This document shows positions 5,321 to 63,630 of a DNA stretch of 64,000 nucleotides, piece by piece. A model generated the notes under the pieces. That model was not told the origin of the DNA. It ran no database searches and was given only the letters and a program-made list of their open reading frames with translations. The DNA lies in NCBI GenBank assembly GCA_949710005.1, contig OX453285.1, positions 9,569,233-9,633,232 on the forward strand, written 5' to 3'. The stretch is from Ricordea florida. Lineage: Eukaryota > Cnidaria > Anthozoa > Corallimorpharia > Ricordeidae. Positions within the stretch are counted from its first letter, which is position 1. Each line of letters begins with the position of its first letter. Position numbers and translations under genes: made by a program.

Positions 5321-5701
5321 ACTTGTATTTATTTTATGTCATAGTATAGTTAGTAATATATTTAGGGGGCTTTATCCTAATGCGTTTATTAGTTGTTAAA
5401 AAGCAAAAACTAAGCCAGGAAATACTTATATTTATTTATTTGGAAAAAAGAAAAGCCATGTAACGTTTAGGACCGGACATGGCTGTTGGAGCAAAGGATG
5501 CGAGACTCCAGCAGTAAAGATTCCGTTAATATGTTCTCGGAAACTTTTTTCATCCAAATTTCATTATGTTTGTGTTTTTATAAGTGTCTGTTTGTGTTTT
5601 GTGCGTTGCAGACCCTTCTCATCCATTACTTATGTTATATTAATTGTCAATAGCCTGCGCCACATACTTTTTTCCCTTCAGCTCAATACTAAGGACGATT
5701 C

Positions 5702-6572
5702 ATGATGAGTTCTTGTGATTTCAAAATGCTATCTCTGAATGTAAGAGGTTTGAGTAACTTTAAGAAACAACGTTCAATATTTGCATGGTGTAGAAAACAA
5801 AATGCAAATATAATCTTTCTTCAAGAAACACATTCTACACGTGACAAAGTGAAACAATGGAAAGCTGAATGGGGTGCACCTTTAGAACTCGCCCATGGGA
5901 GCAGTAATGCAAGAGGTGTTGCGATATTATTACGAAATGGCTTTGATTGTAAAATAAAACAGAAATATGTTGATCCCGCTGGTAGATATATTGGAATTCA
6001 AGCACAAATCAATGACGAAAACTTTTATTTATTTAAAGTTTACGGTCCAAACAATGATAATCATGCCACTCAATTTTATGATCATCTACTTGCCATCCTT
6101 AAAAGAGAAGACCTTGCTTATGAAGATAAAATAATTATTGGAGGGGACTTTAACTGTCCTATGAATCCGATGTTGGATAAACAAGGCGGGATAATAATGA
6201 TCAGAAAGAAAATTGTTGAATGCATCGAAGAAATCTTAAGGACATTCAATTTGCATGATATATGGAGGGTAAAAAACCCAAGGAAAAAAAGTTTTACATG
6301 GTGCCAAAAATCTCCATTTATCTTTTGCAGACTAGATTATTGGCTCATTTCAGACACACTCCAGGACTTGATTAAAAATGTAGACATTATTGCAGCCATT
6401 AAAACGGACCATTCGGCAATTGTACTTCATTTGCAAGGGTTTGAGGAGACTAAAAAAGGGCCGGGTTTCTGGAAAATGAAAACATCGCTTCTGTCAGATG
6501 AAAATTTTATTCAACTAATGAAAACGAATCTGGAGATATGGAAAGAAGAAGGGAAAGATTTCTCAGATACTA
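5702..6572 (+). pseudogene. LINE ORF2, endonuclease domain
   Basis: An apurinic/apyrimidinic-type endonuclease occupies the start of ORF2: LSLNVRGL near 5730, FLQETHS near 5815 with the catalytic Glu, IIGGDFNCP near 6133, and KTDHSAIVLHL near 6400 with the terminal DH pair. This enzyme nicks target DNA for target-primed reverse transcription. The domain is intact over about 290 residues. It then runs into the Tc1-like insertion at TA 6571-6572 and continues after 7823. About 380 bases separate it from ORF1. Confidence 0.85.
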
Positions 6573-45839: not shown

Positions 45840-46489
45840 GAAGAAGCAGTGGAGAAGGGAATGAGTCCTTATCTTCCCATAGCAACATGGCTTGCATGTA
45901 AAAGACATGTAGAAGGAGATTGCAAAAGGAAGCTTCACTCTTTAAGAATTTCTTCGGAGCATCGCACAGCATTCCTTCGTGACATATTTGGGTCTGATTT
46001 CAAGCAAATAAAGGGGCTTATCGACTCAGACGGATGCGAAGATTTCGATGCTAAGCTGGACAGATTGCAAGAGGTTTGGAATTCCAGAGAAAAGAAGGCT
46101 AGAGGGACAGCGCTGTCCGAGTCAAGTGCAGCGGAATTTCACGTCTATTTCGTTACGCACGTTTCCCAAGACATGAAGAAGAACATGATTGCACCTGTTA
46201 GAAAACAAGCAGGCCTGGGTGAATCGTTTTACTTCAACAATGCAGCCGAGTCAAAGCATTAATGGATAATGGCCCGAAAGGTGAAGATTTAATAAAACTC
46301 ACCTGGACAGAAGTAGTAGACTTACTGAAGTCTACTTCAGAAGAGGAGGAAAGAAATTGTGAGAGAGCCATTGTGGATGAGGGCCCTTACAAAATAAGGG
46401 ATATCTTCACTCCAAAGCTTCAGGTTCCTTTCTCTGCCTACATCGGCAAGTCACATGCCGAAAAGGCAAAGATCAATAAAAAGGTACGC
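45840..46489 (+). pseudogene. Transposon-type ORF, part 1 (interrupted by element B)
   Basis: The plus-strand frame contains PYLPIATWLACKRHVEGDCK, FHVYFVTHVSQDMKKNMIA and KQAGLGESFYFNNAAESKH, then after a frameshift near 46258 KLTWTEVVDLLKSTSEEEE and AIVDEGPYKIRD. I recall this protein as a repetitive family in coral genomes, probably transposon-derived, of unknown class. Element B is inserted at TA 46490-46491. The C-terminal part is recognisable at 62937-63490 on the far side. Confidence 0.6.
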
Positions 46490-46509
46490 TACCCCAGTAA
46501 AAATATTTT

Positions 46510-46660
46510 GTGATCACAGAGTGATCACAAATCACGCCCGTGATCATGTGTGTGATCACACATTTTAGCGTGATCACAAAAAAGGAAGGCATGATGTATG
46601 CCTGATTGGAGTGATCATGCCTTTTTCATCACTGAAGGTGTGATCACGTATCACGGTCTG
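46510..46660. repeat. Left subterminal GTGATCAC array (element B)
   Basis: At least five exact GTGATCAC words and several one-off versions (GTGATCAT, AATCACG) occur in 150 bases, with another exact copy near 47018. It mirrors the denser array at the right end. Confidence 0.88.
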
Positions 46661-47299
46661 ACTGATCTGACTTCTTATCACTTTCAGAGGGACAGAAACG
46701 GAAAATTATATCAATATTTTTTGCTCGAGTATGTTCGAAAGTAAATAGAATTGTGTCCAGCAATTTATCGGCCCGATTACACAGGCCTGTTTGTGCGCTT
46801 TATCGCACAGGCTGGCCTGTTTACGCGCTATTTATTTGCCCTCTAGGGGTTGAATATTTGCATGATTGAGAAAATCTGATAGACCAGCCAGAATGGACAA
46901 AGCTCCTAATCGAATCCCTCTTTTGTATGAATTCATCACCCAGCCCATTACTGACTCATCGCGAACTGGCATCTGATGCTCGGAAGAAAAAAAAAGAGTT
47001 GCCAAGCTTAATAACCGATGTGATCACTTTGTGGTTGATTTCATGGTAAACAATATTTAATTACATATGCATTCCCAACGACCTTTGGTTTACGCAGAAT
47101 CAATTCAGTTTAACCTCAAACGAAGGTAGAGTCAAAGTTTCACTTGATTAGGACAAACACAGAGTTAACTTCACATGTTAGTTATACAATATCATTTAAT
47201 TTAAAACAGCAGCAGCTGTCTGTAACGCTCTGATGTTTTTATTGTAACATCTATAAATAAATCCTCATCTAATGAGACCAGTAAAGACTAACCAGAAAA
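46661..47299. other. Left interior of element B, no recognised gene
   Basis: AT-rich non-coding DNA between the subterminal array and the transposase tail. A CAGGCCTGTTTGTGCGCTTTA / CAGGCTGGCCTGTTTACGCGC near-duplication lies at about 46780-46830. Confidence 0.4.
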
Positions 47300-47497
47300 T
47301 TGATGTTTGCACAGTTTTTAGTTATGTTCTTTACATCGGGAAAACGAGAAATCATACACGCATTGTGAGTAGAATATCAATGAAGACACATTTACGTCTT
47401 ATCTGCTCCACAGATATCACAAATGGCCTTCCGGACCCTGGTTTGATGTGCACGTGATGTTTCACAAGGCATTTATTGCGATACTTTCTTAAAACAT
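47300..47497 (-). pseudogene. TNP2-like transposase, C-terminal piece
   Basis: The minus-strand reading gives KCLVKHHVHIKPGSG followed by IRRKCVFIDI, which resembles the C-terminal end of TNP2-like animal transposases. It lies directly beyond the LINE that interrupts the gene and is in the same orientation as the main part. Beyond 47300 the frame is not followed. Confidence 0.5.
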
Positions 47498-47498
47498 C

Positions 47499-48528
47499 AC
47501 GATTCGACAAAACAAGGAAATACAGGGAATCAAAGTCTTCAATTCCGAAGCTAAGATAAGTCAATTTGCTGATGACACTTCATTAATTTGCAACAGCTGC
47601 GACTCTGCTAAAAAAGCAATCGAAGTGGTGGACGCCTTCGGGAATATCTCCGGTTTGCGATTAAATCCCACCAAAACCAAAGCTTTATGGCTCGGCCCTT
47701 GGAGAGAAAGAGAAGATAAGCCATTTGGATTTAAATGGCCTAAAGAACCGGTTCGTGCACTAGGTACTTTTATATCATACAATGAAAGGCAAAATAATAA
47801 AAAGAATTTTCTTGTTAAAATTGACAAATTAGCTTCTAAACTAGAGGTTTGGCGGTCACGTAAGCTTTCTATATTAGGCAGATGCCTAATAACAAAATGC
47901 CTTGGTATCTCGCAATTAGTTTACTCTATGTCAATCCTGGAAGCTCCTTTGACTTGTATTTCAACTATCAATACAACTATTTTCCAGTTTACTTGGAAAA
48001 AAAAGAAAGATAAGATCAAGTGTCAAGTAATGTACCAAAATTATGATAAAGGAGGAATACGTGTTCCAAATGCGGATGTAATGGTCAAATCCCTAAAGCT
48101 AGCCTGGATATCAAGGCTTTTATCTAACTATGAGAAATGGAGCCAGGTTTGGAAAGCAATCCCAAACCACTTTTTCGACATGTATGGTGGTCTAAATTTC
48201 TTGTTAAGATGTAACTACGAATCGAGATTTCTTAAGCAGACCGGTATGCCTCAATTTTACAAAGTAATGCTGCAGTACTTTCATGAATTAAAATCCTCCT
48301 ACGAAACTGACCTTGGGCAGGACTTGGTTTTATTCAACAATAAAGAAATTCTTATAGATAGTAAGACCTTTTTCTATAAATCATGGTTTCAGAAAGGGAT
48401 TTTCCGAGTTCATGACCTCCTAGCGAATAACGGTGCTCTTCTCTCGCATAGTGAATTCACTACAAAGTATAACTTAAAATGTAACTTCTTACAGTATTTA
48501 CAGGTGGTCTCGGCAATACCGAGGCGAC
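47499..48528 (+). pseudogene. LINE reverse transcriptase, piece 1
   Basis: An open frame starts at the QFADDTSLI catalytic motif, continues through the thumb region (SGLRLNPTKTKALWLGP, the usual block after the YADD box), and has KLSILGRCLITKCLGISQ and FTWKKKKDKIKC. It then runs to the TA insertion site of a MITE-like element. The frame is intact over 330 codons, so this insertion is relatively young. It continues at 49458. Confidence 0.85.
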
Positions 48529-48530
48529 TA

Positions 48531-49455
48531 CCGTATTTTCCGGTGTATAAGTCGACCTTTTAAGTCTTGAAAATCAGTCCAAAAAATCGACCTCGACTTA
48601 TACACCGGCCAAAAATCGCCGGGTGAAAAACATATCACTTCATCAGCATAACAATAGACTCCAAAGTGAAAACACATAAAAGCAACTACACAAATAACAT
48701 GGAGAAGAACATTTAATAGTAAATAGCACGATAATGAATAAAGGAAATGTTTAAAAGTGTGTGGTTTCCTCCCTGATTTGTCTCATTTGTAACCTTGCTA
48801 CTTTAATACGTCTACTCTACATTCGGTCTTTCCAACTGACATCACACTTAACCTCTTCGTTCCATCACATACCGTCCCTTAAGCTTGATATCTTCGCAGA
48901 AATCATCGCTTTTCCTGTAAGTCCATTGGGTCTACTTTGTGATGTTATAAGTGAGAGACATTTGTAAATAAACTTGATCAAATCCACAGTGAAATAAAAT
49001 TCTTCGATCGAACAGAAACAGGTCCATGCTTGCTTGGTAACCTCTCAACTAGCTTTGTAAGGTAAACCAAGATGGAGGCTTGTTTACAGACTCGTTTCTC
49101 TGGCTTCTTTCTTACGTTTTGTGTGTTCCTTGGTCAAAAAAAGCTTCAAAATGTTTGATAAAAGTAGTGACCACTGTTTTAAACAGGTATTTTAACAATT
49201 TCAGGCTAAATCGTTCAATTTTTTATTAACACAGTTCTCAAGTTCGCATCTTACACGATGGATGCGATCGTTCTGTTGAATTTGATGCGTGGCCTCAAAG
49301 ATGTTCTGCAAGTCAAACAAGACTCATTTTTCAACATTATCTTAAACAATTTTTTACTCCATTTTTACTCCTGAAATCAAGAAAATCTTAATTTTAAGGC
49401 TCAAAAAGTAGGGTCGACTTATACACCGGTTCGACTTATACACCGGAAAATACGG
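48531..49455. mobile_element. Non-autonomous TA-target element (CCGTATTTTCC ends)
   Basis: A 925-base unit flanked by TA (48529-48530 and 49456-49457), with ends CCGTATTTTCCGGTGTATAA and the exact inverse. A second inverted copy of the CGACTTATACACCGG motif lies just inside each end. No transposase is encoded. Excision plus one TA restores the LINE frame. It is likely a Tc1/mariner- or pogo-derived MITE; I remember this terminus as a common animal repeat. Confidence 0.88.
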
Positions 49456-49457
49456 TA

Positions 49458-49879
49458 GTTGAAAAAGCAAAACAAAATCTGGACGCTAAATTTACTTATT
49501 TACCAGATGATACTTTTTTCCAGCTATCATCCTCAATAAGCGTGAATCTTCTAAAATGGAAGAATAGAGACTACTACTGGCTTTTTATAAACAAAGACAA
49601 TCCAGAACTCAAGGCGCCTAGGAAATGGGCTCGCAATCTGCAGTCCAACGAAATAGAATTGACGGGCTATTTCAAAAATTTAAGAAATATCTGCAAAGAA
49701 AATAATTTGAGAGAGTTCTACTTTAAATTCTTACACAGGATTATTGTAACAAGAAAGGAACTGTGTTTATACGGAATAGAAAGTGACAGTGCCTGCATTT
49801 ATTGTCAGGATCCTGACTCAATTAGCCATTCTTTCATCCACTGTCGATGGTCGAAAGAGTTTTTTGCAGAAGTTATTAA
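49458..49879 (+). pseudogene. LINE ORF2, piece 2 (C-terminal region)
   Basis: This continues the LINE protein after the MITE with VNLLKWKNRDYYWLFINKDN, and then a Cys-His cluster CIYCQDPDSISHSFIHC typical of the L1-Tx1 ORF2 C-terminus. It is interrupted at the TTAA at 49876-49879. Confidence 0.82.
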
Positions 49880-52397
49880 GAGCGACGGTCAGGAAATATC
49901 GACCAAAATGTTAATTTCGTGGCAAGAGTTGAAAAATCGATTTCTTTCATTTTTTGTCCATAGATAGCTTTTAGGTAGACAAGATACCTGATGTGGATTG
50001 TTCCCGCCAAAAGCTTTTTATTTTTTAGAAAAATTAGAACATCGGTTTTTGTGGTCGGAGTCACAAAATTGGCTAATTATTTACGTGAAATTTGCATACA
50101 TCAACTTGCCTCTCGTTCGCAAACAAAGCCGCATGGAGAAATTTGGACACTTTCTTTCAACAGAACCACTGTTCTTCTTTTACTAGAAGATTCTTTTTGA
50201 GCAAAAGCGACACTCACCGAGCAGAAATAATTCAAAAATGAGGAATAGGTGTTATGAATAACAAAAATTCCGTTTTGTTATTGATTTTCGACGGCAATAT
50301 TGCACATGTGGTATAACTCCAAATTGACTTCATTCTAGTTAAATCCCACATTTAGACATACATCTAAAACATACCTGGGAATTAGCTTGGGTTATTGAAG
50401 GAAGTCTCTATAAGGCGGTATCGAAGTTCAGGAATTTTCATGGTGGGTCGGCGGTAATTGTGTAAACACTTCCAGTTTCAAAATCCATGAAAGTGGATAT
50501 TTGATCTCCAGATACTCATTTTTCTTAATCCTTGTAGGTTTTATAGTTGCAAAGTTGCGTTTCTACTTAAAGAGTTCGATAGAAAAGCCAAACTGGGTGA
50601 ATTTTAGCCATTTTGAAACGCTAAACTCTACTGGTCGACCGGATACTCCGCGTGACGAATTGTTTCGTGACTAAACGTGATATTGGGGAGTCGATCAGTC
50701 ACCGAATCACAATATTAACAAGGCATTTCTTGACGGCGAATGAGAACAGTGTTTTGAGGATGAAAAAATTGATCGTCCTAGGCAAGTAAACAGAAAGGTA
50801 AAAGATTCAAACCAGAAGGGCCTCCTGATTCAAGCTTATGTCTTGACATTTGTTGCATGAAGGCGAATATGGAAATTATATGCGCAAAGCGCAAGCTGTG
50901 AAGTGGGGGACGGGGAGGGGATCAAGGCAGCCAGAAAAATAGTCTTTCATGGAATGCATTGACGACATAATCAGTAATCGCTAAAAAGACTGTAAAAAAA
51001 TCGTGCTTCGAGATTGGTGGAGGAACTCGGCACAGATTCGATCCTCGACGCCACCCAATAGAGAGAGATGAGCGGTGCCGGGGACAAAATCGTTAATTCC
51101 GAAAGGTTTGACTCCGAAGAAAAGGATGTAGATACTCTTCCCAAAATAAGTTCGATTTCGGTTTCTACGTCAGTTATTGACTTATGACCCACGATGTCTC
51201 TTTTGCAGTTCAGAAATGGAATAACCTCAGTTGATCTGCTCCTATCTCTGGGGTCATAAGAGCAAGAAACGCCGACTAAGGAGCTAAAAGAGCACTTAAC
51301 GTCCATGATGACACAAAACTGGCAAAGCAAATTCACTCCAAGTTCGCTAATTAAATTTTTCAGCATTTAAATGACTAATTCAATTTACTAATACGCTAGA
51401 GCTAGTAAACTGCTTCGAGCTTTTGCCAACTCTGTAATTTCTTCAACAATTAATAAAAATAAATCCTCACAATTGAAGTAAATATCAATTTGAAAAGCAT
51501 CTTTTATTTTTGCCTCTCTGTTCCGATTCTTCTGAAACCAAAGGAAGCGAAAAAAAAAAACAAGTATAAAAGTTAAACAGGTTAGCCGAGAGCTAATCAA
51601 GTTACATCCTGATATTTATCAGTGAAAACATCTTACAGTGAAAAAGAAAACTTCCACCTTAACAATGAGAAAAAATAACCTCTCTTTGGCCGATTACCTT
51701 TTTTTCAACAAAAAAGGACGAAAAGCGCACACCAGAATCGTTTTCAGTACGCTTTCGTGTATATTCCGGTCAGCTGTGTAAAAACTCTGCTTGACGTTAC
51801 GGTCACGCAACAAGAATTGTTTACTCAGCCGTTGAAGAAATTTGAATGAAGTACGGTCATTTCAAAACCTTAGTATGAGGTGCTGTAAGGAAAACCCATG
51901 CTGATTCTAACATTTTATCAAGAAAAACCTTAAATCCCTCTAATGACATAGTTAAAAGGAAAATCTGAATTATACCACATAGTGAAAAAAACATTTGTAT
52001 TAATGAGGTATTTGCGGGATTTTTCACGTTTGAAAATAGAGCACTTTCCTGTGCGTTGTTTGCTATTTATGAACAACAATAAAGATAAGTCATATAGTTT
52101 CTGTGAAAGTACGGCACTCACTCTATCAAAATCCGGTGTTATGATCCTTTGAATCGTTTTTCCTTGAAGACCAAAAGTAAGTTTAAAATATCAATTTCAC
52201 ACTTGCTTGCGGGACCTTTCGGGATCGTCGCGGGTCAAATTCGTTTTTCTCAGTTTTCTCAGAATTAAAGCGCTCCGGAAGAAAAAGAAATACATTTAAT
52301 TTCTTCTATTCTTAGTAGCTTTTTATAGTCAGAAAATAAGCGAAATTCATTTTTCAACTCTTGCCACTGAATGGTCGATATTTCCTGACCGTCGCTC
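49880..52397. mobile_element. 2.5-kb TTAA-target element without recognised transposase
   Basis: Flanked by TTAA (49876-49879 and 52398-52401). The ends are inverted, starting GAGCGACGGTCAGGAAATA, and the match extends imperfectly for ~80 bases (including GGCAAGAGTTGAAAAAT). TTAA duplications occur with piggyBac and Kolobok elements. Small frames inside (for example minus strand 50971-51366) carry no recognisable domain, so it is presumably non-autonomous. Removing it with one TTAA rejoins the LINE frame. Confidence 0.82.
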
Positions 52398-52401
52398 TTA
52401 A

Positions 52402-52633
52402 GTGGTTTAATGAAAAAAATGGCACCTCCTACTCACTTAACATAACTGAATTACTCTTTGGGAAATTCTCAACAGAAATTACCGCCCCATCAATTATGAT
52501 GTTAAAAAAGCTTAACTATGCTCTTTTATTTGCTAGATACTATCTCTATACAAACAAGTTAAATTCAAAAGAACTGAGATTGAGAGAATTTATAAAAAAA
52601 TTAGAATTGAAATATCGCATTGAAAAATTTTAA
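52402..52633 (+). pseudogene. LINE ORF2, piece 3 (C-terminus)
   Basis: The final part of the LINE protein (NITELLFGKFSTEI, LNYALLFARYYLYTNKLNSK, ending LELKYRIEKF) closes with TAA near 52633. A ~290-base 3' UTR with an AATAAAG signal near 52891 and an A-run follows. Confidence 0.8.
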
Positions 52634-52919
52634 TCAATGATAAATTAAGCCTCAAATAAGTTCAGATAAAGCTATGGCGTATTAAATTATATACACGGTG
52701 AAGGTTACGACTTGCATGGTGTCTACTATATATACAGAACATATATGATGCCTATTGACTAGACGTCGCCAATTCTTGTTGTAATAATTTCTTTTTTTTT
52801 TTATCTAAAACCAATAGTTTAATGTAGCATTAACCAGTGTAATGTATGTAGCAATATTGTGATGTATTAATGTAATGTACCTTGTTATTGAAATAAAGAT
52901 TATTAAAAGAAAAAAAAAA

Positions 52920-53549
52920 TCACGCACAATATCTTTGTTCTGCTCATTGTTTGTTAAAGACTGTAGAATTTCAGTGCATTCTTGCTCATTAAAAAATGGT
53001 AATGGGTCAGAGTTTTCCTCAAGTTCATTGCCAATGCAAAGTCCAAAATCATGTATCTTTAAAAACAGTGTCACTCTGCCATAACAAAGCGTATTGTTTC
53101 TATCTGTATATTCAATTACCATTGAGTCAGTTTTGCGTTTTTTCGCGCCCAAAGAATAAAACTTCTGTCCGTCATCACTCTGAAATCTGCAATAAGGTTC
53201 AAGTTCATAATCTGTGGGAAACTTGTTTGCCATTACAAATACCCTTACTAAGGTCTGTATGTTGCTGTCGATGTTTCTTCGTTCTTTTCCACTTAAGTAG
53301 CCCCCTTGTATTTTGGCAGACACCTAGTGAGAACTTTTAGAATAACCGGTAAGACTTCGCAGCAGCATTTTGCTGTCCTTAGGAATGTCGTTATCTTGCA
53401 AAATTTTTTTCGTAAAATTAGAAAGGCCGAAACAAAGACCAATTGCACATCCAATTTGTTCCATAGCGTGATGCGTTCCATGAACAAGTGGTTTGATAAA
53501 AGCATTCATGCTTTCAAAAGCAAAGCAACTGTATGCCCATAGTGGTCCT
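52920..53549 (-). pseudogene. TNP2-like transposase, downstream piece
   Basis: The minus-strand reading starts with GPLWAYSCFAFESMNAFIKP (near 53490-53549), a block that follows the last catalytic region in animal TNP2-like transposases. It continues through IGLCFGLSNFTKKIL to a second stretch (QTLVRVFVMANKFPTDYELE, CYGRVTLFLKIHDFGLCIG). One stop occurs near 53323. It lies between two LINE insertions and continues both upstream (54206) and downstream (47497). Confidence 0.72.
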
Positions 53550-54205
53550 CGGCGTGAAACATAAAGAGGTGTCTATACTAGTTCACAATACGTTGATTCT
53601 GCCATTGTTTGATTATTGCGATGTTGCTTGGAGTGGTCTGTTACAACAAGACCAGGATAGATTACAGCGTCTACAACACAGATCGGCGCGTATAATTACG
53701 TGTTGTACACGCTCCACTGAGGCAATGAATCAATTACGTTGGTCGAGTCTTTCCAAGAGACGCTCTTATCATAAGGTCAAGCTTGTTTTTCTTTGTCTAA
53801 ACTCTTTAGCCCCTAGTTATTTCTTGGCATTTTTTACCAGATTTTCGAACATTCATAGCTATTCCACCAGGCAGAGCAGTAGGTTATTGTTACCTAGGGT
53901 GAAATCAAATTTTGGAAAAAACACGTTTCTTTTCAGTGGAGCAAAAATTTTTAATGAGTTGCCCACTGACATAACAAAAGCACAAGACACACAGACTTTC
54001 TGCCGCCGTGCAAAAGGGTTTTTATTATCGAAATAGTTCTTAGTGATTGTCTCTTAGTATTAAGTATTGTAAATAGATTTCTAACGTAGTTCTTAGTTTT
54101 TAAAGTGTACATGAATTTGCATTTTTAACTTAATGTTATCTATACAGGGCCCCCATGGATACCAGCCTTTGAGCTGAACGGGCTACCCTGTTTAAATAAA
54201 GTTCT
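53550..54205 (+). pseudogene. CR1/Jockey-like LINE 3' fragment inserted in the transposase
   Basis: A plus-strand frame encodes the end of a LINE reverse transcriptase (HNTLILPLFDYCDVAWSGLL, RLQRLQHRSARIITCCTRST, then KSNFGKNTFLFSGAKIFNEL). A ~170-base 3' UTR ending in TTTAAATAAAGTTCTACTTT follows. It splits the minus-strand transposase cleanly: the transposase reads on from both edges. It is 5'-truncated, as is usual for LINE insertions. Confidence 0.82.
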
Positions 54206-55403
54206 ACTTTACATAATAAGCTAAATGCTGCAATAAATGGACATTCATGGTGCATTGTGTTGGCGCATACAGTATTCCCATTAAAAGAACAAAGTCTTGT
54301 AGCATGCCGTCTGCCTCTTCAAGATCTGTGCTTGATATTGAATCGGAACACAAAATTCCAATTGCTCCGACAAGAAGACACCAGTGAAAAATGTACAAGG
54401 GATTTAAGATTTTGAAGAAAACTGGCACAGAATAATGCAGTAGCCAGTTTTTGAGTTCTGTTGCTTTCCAATGTTTAAGATCTTCTAACGATCTGGGCAA
54501 TCTACCTACAATGTCTGGCGGCTTTATCAAAAGAAGTTTGCGGGACATAGACGAAGTCTTTGTCCCTATATAAAAGGCTTTGTCTGTGTTTCCATTGGAC
54601 CTTTGTTGATGCATAATGTACTTTACAACTCCAAGACAAACGGAGTGCATCCAATCGATTGCAAATGAACGTACTAAATCAAACGGATACGAAAGCTTCA
54701 CGAGAATGCTATGCCCCTTGACTCCCATAACCGCTTTCTTAATAGTGGCCTTCAATGCAAATTTAACTTGATCTTCATGAGTCCTTTTCACGGGGCTTTG
54801 TTCAAAAGGCCAGTATCTATGGATGTTGTTTGGCCCATAGCCAACTCCTTCTGACTTGCAAAGATGGCAAGCGCATTTTCCATTAAAACGTTTCATATTC
54901 ATCAAGTCAGCTCGTGCAGGCAAGTCGGCTGTTGCTATAAATAACAGACATTGGACATTGATGTCCCCATCTGCACTGTCTGGTACATGTATTCCAGTCG
55001 AATTTAGACCATTCAGCTTTTCAACCAAAGGGTTAAGAAATGTCAACATGTTTGGATCATGTTTGTCACAATAGATGTACGCAGGAATAATGAACATTTT
55101 TTTTTTGAATCGGTGTTCCTTTGGGAGCTCGTTGATCATGATATAAACCGGCCACAAATGACCAGCCCTAGAAGATGAATATTTGTTAACTCCATCAGTG
55201 TTAACTGTAAACGAAATATTGTACAATTGTGAAAGAAAGCCCCTAGGATGTATGAAATTCTTGTAGTCGAGTCCGTGGAATATGTCATGAATACTGCTAC
55301 AGCTAGCTGCACGCTTTACCTGCTCTTTTCCTTTCTTTAATAAGTTCACAAATTCAGAATCTCTGAAAAGATCGTTGATCTTTTCTTCTAAATGCAGATC
55401 CAA
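54206..55403 (-). pseudogene. TNP2-like (EnSpm/CACTA) transposase, catalytic part
   Basis: A long minus-strand frame of about 400 codons. Recognisable blocks are FTVNTDGVNKYSSSRAGHLW with the first acidic residue (near 55150-55215), IATADLPARADLMNMKRF followed by CACHLCKSEG (the second Asp and Cys cluster, near 54860-54960), and KLSYPFDLVRSFAIDWMHSV with LGVVKYIM (near 54610-54700). These are the signature of TNP2/Transposase_21 enzymes, which cut and paste CACTA elements. The frame reads through to the LINE insertion. It overlaps the N-terminal frame by 16 bases because of a small frameshift near 55460. Confidence 0.85.
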
Positions 55404-56242
55404 AAAACTCGACAGTCCTGCCTTGCTGCATTTGGCATTTGGGCACTTGTCGGCTTTAACAGCCGGAAACAGTTAGTACAGTAATTTATCTTTGTTGGTT
55501 CCTTGGAGCCAAAGTATTCTTTCATGATCACTTTCATTTTGTACACCGACTGAAAAGTTTGTCTACATCGGTCTCCAAGCAATGCGGATAGCAAGCGAAG
55601 GAGATCTGCCCAGGCTGCTTTACTCAAATTGTGCTTTAAAACAAAGCTTACAATTAAGACACACGATAAAATTTTCGATATTGTGCTGCCTTGATAAAGT
55701 GGCTTCTCCTCGTCAGGAAGCGTAGTTTCGTTTTCTCGTTCAGGGACCATCTCTTCTGGCTCGTTATCCCACTGTTCACTTTCCGTTTCGGAAACACTAT
55801 CTTCACTATCTGAAGATGATTCAATGTCACTTTCCTCCCCTGATGAAGAAGTGGTACTAGTATTGAAGGTAGCTTCATCTTCGAAGTTATCAGCGGAAAT
55901 CTCTTTTTCTTCATTCTGTATTTCCACAGTCGTGCCGATCGGCATCTCTTCATTTATGTCTGTCTCACTCATTCTTTCCACTGATCCAGCGGTGTCCATT
56001 GAAGCTGGCAAAGTGCTGCAGGCTTCCACAATGCCATGATATCTCCTAAGTTGTCTACTGGGATTCTCCTGATCTCCTGATCTTTTCATTCTCGCTCCGG
56101 TCTTTTTGTGATAATACTGAAGCTGTCTGGATGTTTGTTTTGGTTCTTCAGCTTTGCTTTTCCCGTGTTCTGGGTTTTCATTTTCGCTCTCAGAACCTGA
56201 ATATGTTTTTTCGCTGCTTGAAGAACTGTCGAGGTTGTCCAT
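55388..56242 (-). pseudogene. TNP2-like transposase, acidic N-terminal part
   Basis: This frame starts at the ATG at 56240-56242 (MDNLDSSSSSEKTYSGSESE). The first 180 residues are acidic and Ser-rich, followed by a helical region and a zinc-binding start (INYCTNCFRLL). The next Cys pair is found in the overlapping frame, so a single-base indel near 55460 splits the zinc cluster between frames. The start is about 710 bases from the divergent plus-strand gene start at 56956, leaving a shared promoter region. Without that indel and the two LINE insertions, the gene would be a typical animal EnSpm transposase. Confidence 0.78.
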
Positions 56243-56955
56243 ACTTAACCAAAATATTACCAGGTGAAGAAGTTATTTTACATGGCATTCATTCATGCAA
56301 TAATTAAACACTTATCTGTCATGTAAGTCGTTAAACAATCTTGCAAGGAATGTTCTCGTGATCGTTTTATCGGATGGTGAATAACGCGAAGCAAAAAATA
56401 AACGTAATTTAAATGGTTTAGACATCATATCCAATATGGGTTGACTTAAACATAATACTGTAGGTTTATAAAGTTATCCTTACTCAGAGAGTTGAAGGGA
56501 ATCAAAGCATGTCTTTGTTAAGGAATTTGCGTGCAGCTGTTATACTTATCTGTCATTAAGGTCGTTTGGCAGGAGAAGAATTTAATACGAAGAATGTTTG
56601 GATTAGATGACTCACGCGAAGCAAAGAAAACGCATCCATTATCTGAGCCTGTAGCTCTTCCATTTTTGGGAGAAAATATATTTTCTTAATCTCAGTTTGG
56701 TTTCAAAAAATAATTCTTGTGTACCCCTAATGGTAGATTACAATGTTTCTAATGCAAAATGGACAAAGTGATACTAATCTCGTGACATTCACCGCTGTAA
56801 CCAATCCCTGCTCATTCTGTATCAGTTTACCCATTCTCCAGTGAGAGGTCAGTTGAATTCAAAGCGGGACCTTTGAAATCTTCTCTAGGACAGTTAGCGA
56901 GCTCTTGGTGTTCACCAATCTTTCAATAGTATCTGTGTGTCTTTTGGTCAGAATC
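56243..56955. promoter_or_regulatory. Divergent promoter region of element B
   Basis: These 710 bases separate the minus-strand transposase start from the plus-strand gene start. Similar phrases such as ACTTATCTGTCAT..AAGTCGTT (near 56310 and 56545) and CGCGAAGCAAA (near 56386 and 56614) occur twice, suggesting a diverged duplication of ~230 bases. No TATA box stands out. Confidence 0.45.
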
Positions 56956-57663
56956 ATGGCGGTTTTCTATGCAGTAGAATTTCCATTAGAGGATGCTAAG
57001 TCAAGGGGACCTCACATTGTGCCGGAAAGCAAGGTTAACGAAGAAAATGGCTCTACCCAAGTTCTGTGGAAAGTTGTGGATGAAAATGGTGCACTAACAG
57101 AGGCATATTTTAAGGCAACAAGCCTTAAAAAGGGCACAAAGAAAGAGTGTGGCGAATTTATTGACCGCCTTAAGAAATCGCGTGAAAAGGCTGAGATCAG
57201 CAATAAATCGGAACGGAGCCAAAAGAAGCCTCGCAAACTTACTGACTACGACTTTGACGATCTTACGGAGCAGCTCACAGCAAAAAGACCACGGCCTGAA
57301 GTACGCGAATTTTCATTGAAAAATGTTAGCGCAGAAGATCTTGAAATAATGGAGTCCGATTCGGAGTCATTTGACCCAGAGGCTGACGGAAAATCCGTTC
57401 TTGCCGATTGGCAACAAAAGGCGCGTTCCTCGAAGGCGGGGAAAAAGAAGAAAACCGCCAACGGTTCTTCCCGCCAAAACCGAGAGTCAGTACCACCACA
57501 AAAAGATTCAAGCTCTAAGGAGAAGAAGGAAAAACCAAGGGCGAAAAAAGACAAGGAAAACGAAGAGAAAGGCTTCAGTAATGCAGCACTGAAGAAAGCA
57601 AGATCTGAAATTGCAAAAAGAGCCAGTCTATTGACATTGGCAAGACAGTCTCCCTTAGCATGA
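56956..57663 (+). CDS. Charged protein of element B, first plus-strand frame
   Basis: The ATG at 56956 (context AATCATGG) opens a 235-residue frame. The first ~80 residues look folded (MAVFYAVEFPLEDAKSRGPH, TQVLWKVVDENGALTEAYFK). The rest is highly charged, with Lys/Ser-rich stretches such as KEKKEKPRAKKDKENEEK. It ends at a TGA that overlaps the next ATG (ATGA at 57660-57663). I recall similar N-terminal modules in BEN-domain proteins of cnidarians. It is divergent from the transposase and may be the element's second protein (like plant TNPA), binding subterminal repeats; this is inference. Confidence 0.55.
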   Translation: MAVFYAVEFPLEDAKSRGPHIVPESKVNEENGSTQVLWKVVDENGALTEAYFKATSLKKGTKKECGEFIDRLKKSREKAEISNKSERSQKKPRKLTDYDFDDLTEQLTAKRPRPEVREFSLKNVSAEDLEIMESDSESFDPEADGKSVLADWQQKARSSKAGKKKKTANGSSRQNRESVPPQKDSSSKEKKEKPRAKKDKENEEKGFSNAALKKARSEIAKRASLLTLARQSPLA

Positions 57664-57911
57664 AGTTACTTCTTCATGGGAATGAAACGGACAGACCCGT
57701 TGAGTTTAATCTTTCTGTGGATCCGGAAACCACATTCAAGACCTTGAAAAGCCTTATAGCGCAGACGACACGAATTCCATCTGACAAACAGCTCCTGGTT
57801 ATTAAAGGACAAGAGTGGAAAATGGATGAAAATGGTCGAATATGTGACGACTGGTCGACTGATGACCTGGTGGCAATATCTGAAGAATGTAAACTGTCAA
57901 AGGGTAAGTAG
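57660..57911 (+). CDS. Ubiquitin-like domain frame of element B
   Basis: An 83-residue frame overlaps the previous stop by four bases. The pattern VEFNLSVDPETTFKTLKSLI followed by RIPSDKQLLVIKGQEW matches the beta-grasp layout of ubiquitin-like domains (strand, strand, helix, then P-x2-Q-x-L-x-x-x-G). The frame stops inside GGTAAGTAG, a good splice donor (near 57905), so it is probably an exon. It is either fused to the preceding frame with a +1 shift or read from its own ATG. A ubiquitin-like module in a transposon-borne DNA-binding protein is unusual. Confidence 0.55.
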   Translation: MKLLLHGNETDRPVEFNLSVDPETTFKTLKSLIAQTTRIPSDKQLLVIKGQEWKMDENGRICDDWSTDDLVAISEECKLSKGK

Positions 57912-58224
57912 TTTTATTTCAGCAATATTGAAATCCATGAATTTTCTGTTCTGTCTTATTCTGCGTGACTAACCAAGATGCCAGCAGCAGACAGTTCAGT
58001 GCAAAAATAAGCGGATGCCACTGAGAGGAAAGCCGACAGTTGCCGTAAGTAAATATTTCATTCCTACAGGTAGAAGAATCATGTGCATTCATTTGTAATG
58101 GAATGAACAATGCAAAGTGGAAAGACGGATTTCATTTCAGTTTTTGCATTTGCTCTTAGCTCTTGCCATTCCACAAGACCCAGGAACTAATTAATTGATC
58201 TGTTTTGACTTGACCTGATACCCT

Positions 58225-58331
58225 GGATGGAGAATTCGAAGATGAAGCCGGCGAAGTTGATGTAACCTGCGACTTTGACCCAAGCTATCCATCAGAGCAG
58301 GAAAGCGACAAATCAAAGCAAGAAAAAGAGG
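58225..58331 (+). CDS. Acidic exon of element B plus-strand gene
   Basis: A short segment reading GEFEDEAGEVDVTCDFDPSY and ending KSKQEKEG just before a GTGAGT donor. An acidic, probably disordered linker exon is the likely reading. A further small exon may lie near 57980-58045 (ending at GTAAGT). The exon chain is not proven. Confidence 0.4.
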
Positions 58332-60240
58332 GTGAGTTAATTTTACGCCTTACCTTATTTTTCAGAGAATTTGACACTAGATTCGGGATTATTGAATTTA
58401 TACTGAATCCTTAATTGTTTTATCCGTGTCAAGTGATTGAAATCCTTTGTGTTGGTGAGTTGGCGCATCGATGCCATCGCCAGGCGTTTTGGCCACGTTA
58501 ATTAAAGCCGTCATTTTCATGTTGTAAATTTGGTTTTTAAATTTCTAGCTTGATGCCAAAATACGTAGAACACAGTGTCGAGTCTCTTAGAAAATGAATA
58601 TTTTAGGAATTGCTTCAGTCGGTTTTAGTGTAGTGTTCTAAACGCTACAGTAGTGGGATTGTATACGAAAAGGTGTAGAAATGTAAACGGTTAACCTCAC
58701 GTTGTGTAAACAACTGCTCAAGTTGAAATGCAAATTAGTCGCGAACAGTCATGCAAGATTGATCACAGAGTCATCACAAATATTTTTTTCAACAGTAGCT
58801 CATGCCAAGCGTGAACAACTTTTTCTCAGTAGTACAGTCTTCGCTAAAGATTGTACTGGTTGCCAGCTAAGTTTTTGCATCATGATATTTGGGAGTTAAT
58901 TAACTAAAGAATCTAAATTTACCACAACATTATAACGTGACATATTCCTAAAACAGCAACATTCCGCCACGCTTTCTCAAGTTCTTCTTTCGATGAATAA
59001 ACATTTCGTTTGAGACTTGAATACTTCCTAAGAAGAACTACTGGCTAAAGTTTGCTTTAGTCTTTTAAGATCTTCAGACATTATGACAAGACAACCACGT
59101 AAAATCTTCGAGGTGCAAAAGACATTACTCTTTCAAAGTCGATTTCATCGATAAGAAAAGAAATTAATTAAACACCGGAAGTGGTGTTCCGTTTTCCAAC
59201 ATGGAATCTCTGAGCTTAATGTGAACTAACATAGCCAATGTAATAACAACAGCAAATGAGAATTAATGTGTTTTGTTTCTATTCAAGTTATAACTTATTT
59301 AATAACCTCAGAAAGTAAATAAGAAAAGAATGGCCGGTCAATTTATAATGACTTTCGTCTTTTCTTTCAAATCTACACTTCAAAACCTTTATTCTGTGTT
59401 TTGTGTGTGATCAGATTTTACCTACACAAATATCGTCTTGATAAGATGTACACTCTTTTTTGGTGCAAAAATCATACAATATATGTAAATGACATTCACT
59501 GGGTATCAAATGTGGGACAGAGAGAGACCACGGTTACAATCAGTAGAGTTCTCACGGAAATTCATGTGCGGGAAATTAGCTTAGTTATTTTGCTGTTAAC
59601 TATATTAACATTATATGTGATAAGGCTTTTCAACTTACCATTGATTATCGTCACCCTATGCTTGTCAAAAATTCAGATTTTCCTTTTCACAGGCAGATTG
59701 GCTTTCTTTGAGCATAATTCACATGCGACAGAACTAACTTCTTTATGACGTGACAAAAAATGAAACCAGATTGAGAAAGATATCATACTAATAAGTTGTT
59801 GACAGAACACACTGACATTACAAACAATTAATATTTTAAAATGTGTCGTTATTTACTATATCTGCATATGGGAAGGAGCCAGGCTTGTCACAGTAGTCTA
59901 TATAAGAATTTATTCTTGGTTCAAACTGAGGAAACTCATTACCTTTAGCTTTCATATTATTTTCATATGAAATAATTTGAGTAATCGTGAGTATTTACAC
60001 AAAGAAGCCATGTATCTGATTGTTATCTTTTCAAAATGCAAATCATTAACAAAAGGTATTGCCCTTGAAATATAACCGGACTAGTAAATTCTTAAGACAC
60101 CTTAAATTTATGATAGATTAAGTTAATCAAATTATACCTAGTACATATTGTATATATGATTCATTTTAAAAACTACAAAATGAATAAGCTGGTACTGTAG
60201 CAAATTTTTTAAGTACACTGTACAGCAAACAGTAGCCAGG
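58332..60240. other. Probable intron, no recognised gene
   Basis: 1.9 kb of AT-rich DNA lies between the acidic exon and the BEN-like exon. The open frame at 59401-59748 is hydrophobic but shows no recognised domain. No repeats or terminal inverted sequences were seen. Confidence 0.45.
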
Positions 60241-60252
60241 GAGAATTAAGCA

Positions 60253-60681
60253 ATGATGACAACGAAACCAAGGAAAATGCCTGGTTTATACTTTATTTAC
60301 GAATCTTGCAATAAACTAGATGTATTTGGTGTATCAATCAATTTAAAAACTATAGCTCAGCACGTTGTAACAACATCGTTCAGTTCCAAAAAAGAAATAC
60401 CAACACTCAGGGGAGTGTACGTGTTAAAGAAAAAGATAGAGCAGCTCCCAAAAAACACCGCAAAAGGATTTGCCCTGAAGCTATTCGAACTTGTATTTAG
60501 CAGGGATGAGGCAAAGACAGGAAGCGTTGAAGGGAAAGGCGACAAACTCCTAAAGCTGGACCCAAACAGAATAGCAGCGGTAAAAGAATGTACAGAGCTG
60601 ACGTTCTCTGCCGATGAAAATGTTGAGTGGGCCATAATAGGCCTTTTGCAGCTAAGCCATCACGTGACCTACTTTTCATAA
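60253..60681 (+). CDS. BEN-like domain exon of element B
   Basis: An open frame whose core (about 60391-60640) reads TLRGVYVLKKKIEQL, then KGFALKLFELVFSRDEAKTG, then LLKLDPNRIAAVKECTELTF. The order of helices, the acidic E/D after the third hydrophobic block, and the LD-x3-I-x2-V helix fit a BEN domain. A short acidic exon (GELSNDDNETKENAW) may precede it from about 60238, and the true exon boundaries are unsettled because the first residues of the frame do not fit the domain. The end (LLQLSHHVTYFS) also departs from the family, so the last helix may be lost or spliced. Confidence 0.5.
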   Translation: MMTTKPRKMPGLYFIYESCNKLDVFGVSINLKTIAQHVVTTSFSSKKEIPTLRGVYVLKKKIEQLPKNTAKGFALKLFELVFSRDEAKTGSVEGKGDKLLKLDPNRIAAVKECTELTFSADENVEWAIIGLLQLSHHVTYFS

Positions 60682-60689
60682 AATTATGG

Positions 60690-61076
60690 GTTATAACTTA
60701 ACAAATGCCAGAAATGGAAAGAGCGCATCGAAAATACCAAAATGGCCAAGTTTGAGGCCCCTGGCATGAAAGAGTAAGTTTATACGACAGCTTGAATTTT
60801 CGGAAAATTTAGAGGATTTGTATGGAAAATGTTGCTGGAGAGCAAGGCATTCTTTAAGTTATAGCCCATAATATGAAAATTTTTTCGGAAAAATTTGGTC
60901 ACGTGACCCCAGCTGCAAAAGGCCTATTAAAAAAAGTATTGATGAGAAGTGCAGAATGGTCCGAAATGACAGATGTTTTGTGTGGGCAGGGGTAAACCTA
61001 ATGAGGAAGGATTAAAGAAAAGATTGCATCACCACTGCCAACGACTAAAAAAGGACCATTGCATCGTTGCTAAGTA
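60690..61076. other. Interior of element B, no recognised gene
   Basis: Non-coding. A GGTCACGTGACC palindrome-like word near 60897-60907 and a CATCACGTGACC near 60658 are similar, and each lies in a phrase ending AAAGGCCTATTA or its inverse (GGCCTTTTGCAGCTAAG near 60640; AGCTGCAAAAGGCCTATT near 60910). They suggest a ~250-base inverted repeat pair. Confidence 0.45.
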
Positions 61077-61180
61077 TTGTTTAATAAACAAGCAGGAGTG
61101 TTTTATCAGATTTAAAAGCCCGAGGCGAAGCCGAGGGCTTTTAGAGCTGATAAAACACGATCTGCGAGTTTATTGAACGG
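61077..61180. repeat. Imperfect ~100-bp palindrome
   Basis: GTGTTTTATCAG...TTTAAAAGCCCGAGG is followed by its approximate inverse (CCGAGGGCTTTTAGAGCTG, ATAAAACAC), with outer arms AATAAAC / GTTTATT. The centre is CGAGGCGAAGCCGAG. It could be a small fold-back MITE; no target duplication was established. Confidence 0.75.
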
Positions 61181-61410
61181 CTTCAAAAACTTATTTGTGG
61201 AGTCTCTGTTCATTTCACACTTTTTTGTTTGTTTTCCTGAAATGCACACGGGTTTTTATCTCTATTTTAGTCTCAATGGGTATTGTTATTTGGGATAAGC
61301 TAAAATAATGATCTTTTCAATTTTTTCAGTAAAGACTGCATGATTTGAATTGCTAATCTTGCCTCGTTTAAAACTTATGTGAAAGTTGCTTTTGGAACTC
61401 TGATTTCAGC

Positions 61411-61650
61411 ATGCCACCGAAAAAAGTATTCAGGAAAGCTAAGAATGTTCAAGAGGAGAGGGAGTTATTTGAGGAGTGTGTTCCAAAATAAACCAAAAAT
61501 GCTAATAAGTGGTCGTATAAAATTTTTTCGGAGTGGCAAAGGGAAAGAGAAAACAAAGACCCTAGTCAGGAGCAGTGTTCGTTCACATTTGAACCTGAAA
61601 AAATACAATGCCAGTGATGTCAGGTTGTGTATTCAATAATTGTACTTTCA
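61411..61650 (+). pseudogene. KIAA1958/DUF3504-like recombinase N-terminus
   Basis: After a TTTCAG acceptor, a frame starts MPPKKVFRKAKNVQEERELF. It meets a TAA near 61490 and continues in the same frame with NANKWSYKIFSEWQRERENK, a block like the N-terminal helical domain of tyrosine-recombinase-derived (Crypton/KIAA1958) proteins. The catalytic recombinase domain is not present. It may be a captured exon or a fragment of a separate element inside element B. Confidence 0.45.
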
Positions 61651-61962
61651 ATATGTGAGCCTAAAATTAAGGTTAACTTTCATCATGTTATTAAACAGAG
61701 TGAATGTTGGTTGTTTTGCATCTTTAATTTTGATATGGAAATTTAGGATAAAGTTTTATATAAATCTTCATGTTCGTTAGTATTCTTTATATAAAGTTCT
61801 TATCCTAATTTGCATCTCTTTGCATTTGCTTTGTATACCCCATATTTCCCTGTCACCGAATTCAAATCCCTCCCCGGGCTTTAAGAATGGTGAGCTTTAC
61901 CACATATAAAGGTTCCTGGACGTGACTAATTTCCCTAATTTCATTGGCCAAAAACCTAAGGA
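61651..61962. other. Stretch without a recognised gene
   Basis: AT-rich non-coding sequence. Related AAGTTCTTATCCTAA / TTAGGATAAAG..TTTTATATAAA phrases near 61744-61810 form a loose inverted repeat. Confidence 0.4.
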
Positions 61963-62140
61963 CTTATGTCGTTTATAGCATCACTGCCAAAGACTAAAAA
62001 AGGACCATTGCTGCATCGTTGCTAAAGACATTTAAAGGACTTATTTAATATCGTTTATAGCATCACTGCCAAAGACTAAAAAAGGACCATTGTATCGTTG
62101 CTAAAGACATGTAAAGGACTTATATCGTTTATAACATTAC
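61963..62140. repeat. Tandem repeat of ~78 bp
   Basis: Two adjacent copies contain CATCACTGCCAAAGACTAAA, AAAGGACCATTG, ATCGTTGCTAAAGACAT and AAAGGACTTAT. A third, diverged copy of the core (CACTGCCAACGACTAAAAA) lies at about 61028-61075, 0.9 kb upstream. Confidence 0.85.
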
Positions 62141-62694
62141 ATATGTGTTCTAGTTTATTATTACTATTATAATTATTATTCAAGTTTGCTTCAAGCAGTA
62201 TAGATAGGTGTTTCAGTAAAGCTGCCTGTGAAGCTTAAATTACGATTTAAATGGAATGTGTAATCAATTTCAAATGCAACTTGAAACGTAGTATTAAAAT
62301 AAGTTTACCCTTAGAGACTTGTAGATGATTGAAATTCATCTTTGTCTTAAGTCGCGGACATCCTTAAAAGTCATTAAGTTATGTGGCTTTTAACATTTGC
62401 AATGTACGGGAACCCATGTTTTCATTCGCTCTGAGTTAAATTAACAACAGCGGAATTCCGATAATTTTCTCGAAACTCCAAGGAAAACTACAATATTATT
62501 GGTTCGCGAAATCGGGAAGTTTAGAAATCGTCAGGAAAACGAGTCTGACTAAAAAAGGGACACGAGTTTGAGGTGGGAGGCTAAAAATCCCTGAGGTTCC
62601 TTGAAATTGGGCTCAAAATTTGTCATATGTGATTTTCTTCTCATCTGACCGTGATTGATTCAAGGCCTAAAATTCGTCTGGCCGTAACACAATA

Positions 62695-62920
62695 CTTTCT
62701 GTGATCACGCTACTATCACAGTGTGATCACGCCGTGATCACTGAGTCAATCACGCCTAAAATTAGTCTGGCTGTGATCACAATATTTTTGTGATCACGCT
62801 ATTTTCAAAGTGTGATCACGTCGTGATCACGCCGTGATCATGCAAAAAAGGTTTTTACGCGTGATCACGGTGTGATCACACCCAGTGATCACACCCGTGA
62901 TCACGGCGTGATCACGCCTT
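62695..62920. repeat. Right subterminal GTGATCAC array (element B)
   Basis: About a dozen exact GTGATCAC words occur in 225 bases, often as CGTGATCACG. An internal ~65-base near-duplication contains CGCCTAAAATTAGTCTGGC (near 62752) and CGGCCTAAAATTCGTCTGG (near 62660). The array ends about 20 bases before the right terminus of element B. Confidence 0.9.
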
Positions 62921-62936
62921 TATTTTTACTGGGGTA

Positions 62937-63490
62937 ACTTTCCATGGAGGCAGCTTTACAGCTGAGAAGAGGACCGACTAATCTTACCAAGAAGCAAGAA
63001 AAAAACTTGACTGAATGTGCATATAAAAAAGTACCAAAGTCAGTCGGTGAAAAACCAGGAGAAGCAGAGAGAAAATGAAAACATGTGCCGCAAATGCAAT
63101 GCTCAACTGATGGTTATAGCCAGAGAGTTCTAACACCTTCAAAACCAAATCTGGACACAACTACATTCAAAGTCAAATGGCTTAAGAACTCTTAAGTGTA
63201 CAAATGTTATGGGTGTCAGCAAAACATCTGTCCAAAACCCAAAAAAGGCGCCAAAGTAGTTCCTCCACCGCCATGGGATTTTGTTCTTACGTGACTGGAA
63301 ATAAGGCCAATCCCTAACTGTGATGGACAATTGAAGATGTCGTTCAAGCCAGAGCCAGTTCATTACCACCCAAATTTGTCCTGCATTCGTTGCGCCCACG
63401 GGAAAAGGTTTTACCGTATTGTGGATGTAACGCAAGCCGACAAGGAGGAGATGGATGATATCCATATTAAGCATTTAGGTAGTGAATTTT
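62937..63490 (+). pseudogene. Transposon-type ORF, part 2 (beyond element B)
   Basis: Directly after the right end of element B the plus strand resumes a related protein with LRRGPTNLTKKQEKNLT. A Cys-containing segment with PPPPWDFVLT follows, and then a conserved-looking end with MSFKPEPVHYHPNLSCIRCA. Together with 45840-46489 this is one ORF split by element B. Multiple stops and frameshifts show that it is dead. Confidence 0.55.
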
Positions 63491-63508
63491 AGGTAGGTAG
63501 TGACCGCC

Positions 63509-63574
63509 GACCAGTTAGCTCAGTTGGAAGAGCACTGGACTACCGTGCGGGAGGTCGCGGGTTCAAAACCCCAC

Positions 63575-63630
<56 letters not shown>

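Follow-up and report, generated by a model that had tools for sequence, protein, structure and literature searches.

A CACTA-type DNA transposon of Ricordea florida carrying a transposase gene and a second gene for a BEN-domain protein, a candidate reader of its end palindromes

A 64,000-nucleotide stretch of the genome of the corallimorpharian Ricordea florida (assembly GCA_949710005.1, contig OX453285.1, positions 9,569,233 to 9,633,232 of the forward strand; hereafter the window) carries at 46492-62934 one real DNA transposon of the CACTA/EnSpm type (CMC superfamily), resembling the TRC elements of animals. We propose, with a probability of about 0.7, that this transposon employs a two-protein system, in which a transposase is accompanied by a BEN-domain protein that would bind an array of palindromes, GTGATCAC, filling both ends. 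By analogy, the BEN protein is most likely the counterpart of plant TNPA for this transposon family.

Ends, copies and transposase

The 14-base end sequence CCCCAGTAAAAATA is present at 46492-46505 (plus strand) and, inverted, at 62921-62934 (minus strand), both exact as described in the first-pass annotation of the window, and no further match with up to one mismatch was detected in the window. The search for other copies proposed in that annotation was carried out on the 538-Mb source genome, and gave 41 exact matches (23 plus, 18 minus), compared with 1 and 4 matches (5 in total) for the reversed sequence used as a control. Ten pairs of facing ends were identified at distances of 8.1 to 28.8 kb, including the window copy, and these pairs, all bounded by the same 14-mer, bear out the initial view of a single element. 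Its size of 16 kb did not hold for the family: six whole copies are 8.1-9.5 kb in length, three are 16.4 (window), 17.0 and 17.5 kb, and one is 28.8 kb, and the window copy is 16.4 kb long because later elements were inserted into it.

For comparison we used 20 stretches of the source genome (L-numbers), comprising six paired copies as a whole, three paired copies as seven pieces, and seven single ends; two stretches taken as single ends (L025 and L027) each contain the second end with one changed base. Using blastn pieces, the copies were classified into subfamily A (window, L012, L014, L015/16 and L019-21), B (L009, L010, L011 and L013; about 70-82% identity to A in transposase pieces), C (L017/18; about 80-86%) and D (L023, L025, L026 and L027; mutual identity of 90-99% over the pieces compared with L025). 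Both ends were read for 12 copies, the window included, and the flanks show 2-bp identity in 10 of them (AA three times, TA, AT and TT twice each, and CA once); L014 is flanked by the 3-bp GTA, and L017/L018 are without any duplication. Since the flanks vary among these 12 copies, the duplication is mostly of 2 bp with no fixed sequence, and thus the TA duplications noted at first are correct for both sides of the window copy, but TA is not a fixed target. The ends start with CCCC, not with CACTA or CAC, and this start together with the 2-bp duplication is of the animal TRC type. The CCCC terminus had been considered a departure from the usual form; as SmTRC1 and the elements of Tribolium and Aedes begin with CCC and carry 2-bp direct repeats in the excerpted text of a 2006 description (PMC1636069), CCCC is no departure among animals and was dropped from the unusual features.

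The divergent arrangement of a TNP2-type transposase and the BEN/ubiquitin-like locus inside the element was upheld. PF02992 (TNP2/Transposase_21) matched both the window frame (E 8.9e-14) and the single uninterrupted frame of 953 amino acids in L014 (E 3.9e-13; 49.5 bits, cut-off 28.6). The L014 protein, numbered without the start Met, carries D353, D442, CxxC at 461-464, HxxxH at 671-675 and E695, in the order D-D-CxxC-HxxxH-E described for CMC transposases (PMC12730594, in part); these D and E are the putative catalytic residues judging from the sequence, and N replaces the first D in L013. No separate DNA-binding domain was detected in the transposase above the Pfam cut-off. A transposase search of the genome gave 50 rows (48 scored of 353 candidates), and those at 27-42% identity, among the matches listed, are by sequence other, related transposase families.

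The many unrelated insertions in the window copy might suggest that separate repeats lie together by chance and do not form one element; given that facing ends recur as nine other pairs in this genome, and that ends, transposase and the second gene are collinear in those paired copies of A and B that were examined, this supposition is scarcely credible.

The second gene and its linkage to end palindromes

A charged protein, a ubiquitin-like frame and a BEN-like exon had been noted as a plus-strand locus of the window. All three are present, and in L012 they are predicted to form one three-exon gene (hereafter gene 2; exons 4722-5667, 5987-6124 and 6808-7499, both introns in phase 1), of which the frame is open throughout the three exons and encodes 591 amino acids. 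The N-terminus and the ubiquitin-like domain share one frame in both L012 and L014. The four splice sites are located at corresponding places in A and B, again with both introns in phase 1: the B splice-site strings are all present in the four B copies, and those of A are complete in L012, L014 and L019, with three of four in L015 and two of four in the window. PF00240 matched the ubiquitin-like frame of the window with E 5.4e-6 and residues 249-286 of the L012 protein with 25.9 bits (cut-off 25.4); true ubiquitins end in a Gly-Gly tail, and no Gly-Gly is present in the L012 domain. The BEN-like exon of the window stays slightly below the PF10523 cut-off of 23.2 bits (22.6 bits, E 1.3e-4), and residues 507-572 of the spliced L012 protein score 29.0 bits; BEN was matched in all four exon-3 proteins submitted (one A, two B and one D). 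Against solved structures, the exon-3 profile came closest to BANP (2.7e-6), and also matched BEND3 (0.007) and, over the coil part, a designed helical protein (0.005). A coiled coil, so labeled from reading of the sequence by eye, is probably located between the ubiquitin-like and BEN domains. Single-sequence AlphaFold models gave a mean pLDDT (predicted local distance difference test) of 40.8 for the window ubiquitin-like frame and 43.6 for the window BEN remnant, and were not used for fold searches.

The window contains 19 occurrences of the palindrome GTGATCAC, where 0.79 would be expected, and 18 of the 19 are within the element ends (6 at 46510-47027 and 12 at 62701-62915) in agreement with the dense end arrays described initially, the remaining one at 33012 being outside the element. 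Among ten copies, which are related to each other and hence are not ten independent tests, 75 exact palindromes were found in the left 600 bp and 94 in the right 600 bp (169 in total), and none in the approximately 121 kb of interior, for which all letters were read. In its extended form the site mostly reads Y-GTGATCAC-R, with a pyrimidine before 116 and a purine after 118 of the 130 sites (up to one mismatch, subfamilies A-D). The first palindrome starts at base 19 or 20 of the end, followed by a spacing of +11, +19, +12 and +18 in six of the seven left ends read (A, B, C and D; L009 is without one site), and the right spacing starts with +11, +12 and +13 in six of the eight right ends (the exceptions being C and D26); the end L028 follows neither spacing.

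When the outermost 160 bp were aligned and the end repeat was left aside, columns were identical between A and D for 55 of 56 site positions and 50 of 90 others on the left side, and for 54 of 64 and 37 of 82, respectively, on the right side; between A and B the corresponding values are 55/56 and 52/90 (left), and 59/64 and 46/82 (right). By this comparison the palindromes are better conserved than their surroundings, in both sequence and spacing, in a footprint-like manner. A second palindrome, GTAAAAA-N-TTTT-N-AC, which echoes the GTAAAAA of the end repeat, was found once in each of 10 loci, 40-90 bp inside the right end (L009-L014, L016, L019, L025 and L026; subfamilies A, B and D), and nowhere else in the loci searched (L001-L008 left out). 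It is possibly a transposase site that distinguishes the right end from the left.

As for linkage, the genome search with the exon-3 protein identified 24 places (all 37 candidates scored), or 20 distinct loci after merging of adjacent pieces. In 18 of the 20, an exact end repeat with the expected orientation follows downstream, at a distance of up to 2.3 kb in 17 cases and of 9.8 kb in one; of the remaining two, one has the upstream (left-end) repeat only and one, C14:10375054, is without an exact end, so that 19 of the 20 BEN-exon loci have an exact end in the expected orientation. The linkage of BEN exon and element is thus near-exclusive. In the opposite direction, no BEN-exon locus was assigned to 12 of the 41 exact matches of the end; among those of the 12 that were inspected, three (L001/L022, L003 and L004/L024) lack GTGATCAC in their vicinity, and could be chance or decayed matches. 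No relatives of the BEN exon were confirmed among 413 pattern stretches of viral contigs, and no palindrome cluster was found in viral contigs.

DNA transposons are able to capture host fragments, and PF10523 matched 28 places in this genome, of which only six are within element loci; gene 2 might then be a passenger, captured from the host and without a role in the element. Among ten other BEN loci, however, only two match the element exon at E <0.05 (26-31% identity), one further match is a 22-residue stretch (E 0.57), and each locus contains 0-1 GTGATCAC in about 3.2 kb. Because all but one of the exon-3 loci carry an exact element end, and the other BEN loci are distant in sequence and without the array, this BEN lineage is a resident of the element. 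The passenger explanation is also at variance with the presence of gene 2 parts in A-D, with the agreement of splice sites between A and B, and with the constraint on amino acids shown below, and we regard it as highly improbable.

The constraint was estimated on tblastn-aligned codons, with A compared to the four B copies unless otherwise stated, as proportions of synonymous (pS) and nonsynonymous (pN) differences. For the transposase core, pS is 0.66-0.68 and pN 0.10-0.14. Within gene 2, the values are pS 0.78-0.80 and pN 0.21 for BEN, 0.72-0.75 and 0.29 for the ubiquitin-like part, 0.72-0.75 and 0.30-0.35 for the N-terminus, and 0.71-0.76 and 0.36-0.37 for the coil part; between A and D, BEN retains 67-68% amino-acid identity with pS of at least 0.98. 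These codon comparisons indicate that the amino acids of gene 2 are constrained between A and B while the synonymous sites are saturated.

The BEN domains of BANP bind palindromic CGCG DNA as a head-to-head pair, with Arg316 and Ser313 in contact with bases and with oligomerization aided by a coiled coil (PMC11472053, in part), and the BEN domain of NACC1 binds the palindrome ACATGT (PMC7764960, in part). The base-contacting Arg316 and the phosphate-contacting Lys314 and Lys250 of BANP are kept in all three subfamily sequences aligned. As BEN binds short palindromes, BANP pairs head-to-head and these three residues are kept, we suggest that two BEN domains would occupy each GTGATCAC and that the ends would be bundled. 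A palindrome-reading role of the second gene had been put forward in the first-pass annotation, and the present comparisons lend it indirect support. In the proposed system, the transposase (953 amino acids, TNP2 type) would cut at the CCCCAGTAAAAATA ends and leave the 2-bp, once 3-bp, duplication; the second protein (591 amino acids) would bind the Y-GTGATCAC-R palindromes and, with several palindromes per end, would bundle the ends for the transposase, as is thought for TNPA in maize En/Spm. By the same analogy the second protein would be needed for transposition, and a role of the ubiquitin-like domain is presumed.

Alternatively, the transposase itself could read the palindromes, and the BEN/ubiquitin-like protein could have another function such as promoter repression or insulation, or countering of host silencing. 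The arrays indeed sit at the ends, where the transposase has to act, the second right-end palindrome resembles the inner end sequence so that more than one protein may read the ends, and among the abstracts listed BEN proteins are mostly chromatin or transcription factors. This alternative is unlikely in our estimate, given the lack of a separate Pfam DNA-binding domain over the cut-off in the transposase, the pairing of this BEN lineage with the palindrome in each of A, B and D, and the recognition of plant CACTA subterminal repeats by a separate protein (PMC2613891, in part).

Several points weigh against the two-protein system with BEN as the end reader. Of the eight contact residues of BANP, only K250, K314 and R316 are unchanged across the three aligned subfamily sequences. 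The second base contact, Ser313, is replaced by Glu throughout; Ser271, Lys278 and Tyr305 likewise differ in every sequence, and Ser310 is retained in A alone. Moreover, GTGATCAC contains neither the CpG found in BANP sites nor the CATG found in those of NACC1. Matches to exon 1 were confined to A, B and C, and matches to the BEN domain to A, B and D; of exon 3, the single C copy examined retains only the start. In D, where the BEN exon but not exon 1 was matched, the transposase was matched in one of four loci (L023), two of the four (L025 and L027) each containing 5,000 unread letters. No copy was recognized with both genes whole, L014 having an open transposase and a broken BEN exon, and L012 the reverse. 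Exon 2 gave no B match, and a ratio of nonsynonymous to synonymous substitution (dN/dS) of 0.89 against C, and is therefore the least conserved part of gene 2; because pS is saturated, ratios between subfamilies are not reliable, and the sparse differences within A yield ratios anywhere between 0 and 3, which are little informative. The sites themselves help to anchor the alignment behind the column counts, and every comparison was drawn from one genome.

A wider scheme is put forward tentatively, and we consider it more doubtful than not: animal CACTA elements would have recruited BEN as an end reader, BEN dimers on 10-bp palindromes often 11-13 bp (about one helical turn) apart would build the bundling array, the ubiquitin-like domain would engage the host ubiquitin/SUMO machinery, and some animal BEN genes may have travelled with such elements.

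Two further loci were observed in the course of the searches. At C14:11807147 and C14:11816877, about 9.5 kb from each other, a distantly related transposase (31% identity) and a BEN frame other than that of gene 2 are likewise arranged divergently, and in the 4 kb read around this BEN frame there is neither GTGATCAC among the repeated palindromes nor a CCCCAGT end. On the reverse strand of L051, four copies of GATCGTTCCA lie within about 70 bp (about 3813-3881), perhaps representing a different repeat array.

Layout and damage of the window copy

The window copy shares about 92-99% identity with L012 and L014 over the longer matched pieces, and differs from them by four added stretches (47502-52913, 53565-54210, 60639-60925 and about 61074-61957). 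It is heavily damaged, and both genes are broken. The features are as follows.

46490-46491, left target-site duplication TA (flank sequence)
46492-46505, plus, left terminal inverted repeat CCCCAGTAAAAATA (exact match)
46510-47027, left subterminal array of 6 exact GTGATCAC palindromes (motif count)
47320-47501, minus, 3' portion of the transposase gene (mapped from L014, with an approximate start)
47502-52913, plus, later insertion, retrotransposon of the LINE (long interspersed nuclear element) type (RVT_1; zf-RVT slightly below cut-off)
52914-53564, minus, C-terminal part of the transposase gene (comparison with copies)
53565-54210, plus, later insertion, fragment with a C-terminal frame and duplication ACATAA (comparison with L012/L014)
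54211-56242, minus, N-terminal and catalytic part of the transposase gene (PF02992), here in two frames (Pfam)
56956-57903, plus, gene 2 exon 1, charged N-terminus and ubiquitin-like domain (Pfam, comparison with copies)
58214-58331, plus, gene 2 exon 2 remnant (L012 acceptor string absent, donor present)
60410-60638, plus, gene 2 exon 3 remnant, first part of the BEN domain (Pfam, alignment)
60639-60925, later insertion with inverted ends, within the BEN exon (comparison with L012/L014)
60926-61015, plus, gene 2 exon 3 remnant, end of the BEN domain (end mapped from L012)
61074-61957, stretch present in neither L012 nor L014, probably a later insertion (edges approximate)
62701-62915, right subterminal array of 12 exact GTGATCAC palindromes (motif count)
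62842-62858, decayed form of the right-end palindrome GTAAAAA-N-TTTT-N-AC, whose pattern is unmatched here (sequence reading)
62921-62934, minus, right terminal inverted repeat (exact match)
62935-62936, right target-site duplication TA (flank sequence)

The ubiquitin-like domain of this copy (about 57660-57903) is in another frame than the rest of exon 1, and the copy lacks, ahead of 60410, about 430 bp that in L014 include the beginning of exon 3. The LINE-type insertion has an A-rich tail and an imperfect duplication of 10-11 bp, and contains at 48527-49459 an insert with 29-bp perfectly complementary ends, which is thus nested in a retrotransposon itself nested in the transposon. The insert at 53565-54210 is presumably LINE-like, judging from its sequence. 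Outside the element, the flanks 46223-46491 and 62937-63085 form one frame interrupted by the insertion: the host frame described earlier on both sides does resume after removal of one TA, but the junction codon is TAA. ARAGORN detected no tRNA in the window; a tRNA-like stretch at about 63502-63582, not called by this program, resembles the head of a short interspersed nuclear element.

Comparison with known systems

Little is known of how the CACTA transposases of animals locate their ends and bring them together, and plant TNPA, in which we know of no BEN domain, has to our knowledge no known animal counterpart. As a candidate for such an end reader, a BEN protein travelling with a palindrome array of fixed form can be put to a direct test. 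If this is true, the palindrome would represent a new class of DNA target for BEN domains, and a chromatin-factor fold, methylation-sensitive in BANP, would be doing the job of plant TNPA; animal genomes may also have acquired BEN genes from BEN-carrying elements. In the openly licensed literature, among the matches listed, BEN was not found joined with CACTA or EnSpm, most subscription journals and Repbase being outside this scope; one paper that came up in a combined search mentions BEN solely among its references, and the literature listed on EnSpm in cnidarians likewise showed no CACTA element with a BEN gene. The animal CACTA/TRC type, the CCC ends and the 2-bp repeats are already known, and what is unusual is the second gene with BEN, in line with the unusual accessory gene content pointed out in the first-pass annotation.

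SmTRC1 and other animal TRC elements share with the present family Transposase_21, the CCC start (Aedes CCCAGTCAAC, here CCCCAGTAAAAATA) and the 2-bp direct repeats, but the excerpted description includes no BEN or ubiquitin-like gene, nor the word 'subterminal' (PMC1636069). In maize, both the putative transposase TNPD and TNPA, the protein that recognizes the subterminal repeats, are required (PMC2613891, in part); En/Spm (8.3 kb) and other plant CACTA elements thus resemble the present system in combining a TNP2 transposase with a second DNA-binding protein for subterminal repeats. They differ in having CACTA ends, in the 3-bp duplication of the soybean element, and in the production of tnpA and tnpD from alternatively spliced transcripts, whereas here the second gene is divergent and has its own exons (PMC2613891). 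BANP and BEND3 (PDB 7yug and 7v9i) are related to the element protein by the profile matches and by the arginine and lysine kept on the DNA helix, and BANP likewise contains a coiled coil (PMC11472053); only 22 of 70 aligned residues of BANP are identical to subfamily A, with the serine of the recognition helix replaced by glutamate, and the element protein differs from both in its additional ubiquitin-like domain and in being transposon-borne. Fungal EnSpm elements also carry an extra gene, TET/JBP, thought to counter methylation (PMC12730594, in part); the extra gene encodes an enzyme there and would encode a DNA-binding protein here.

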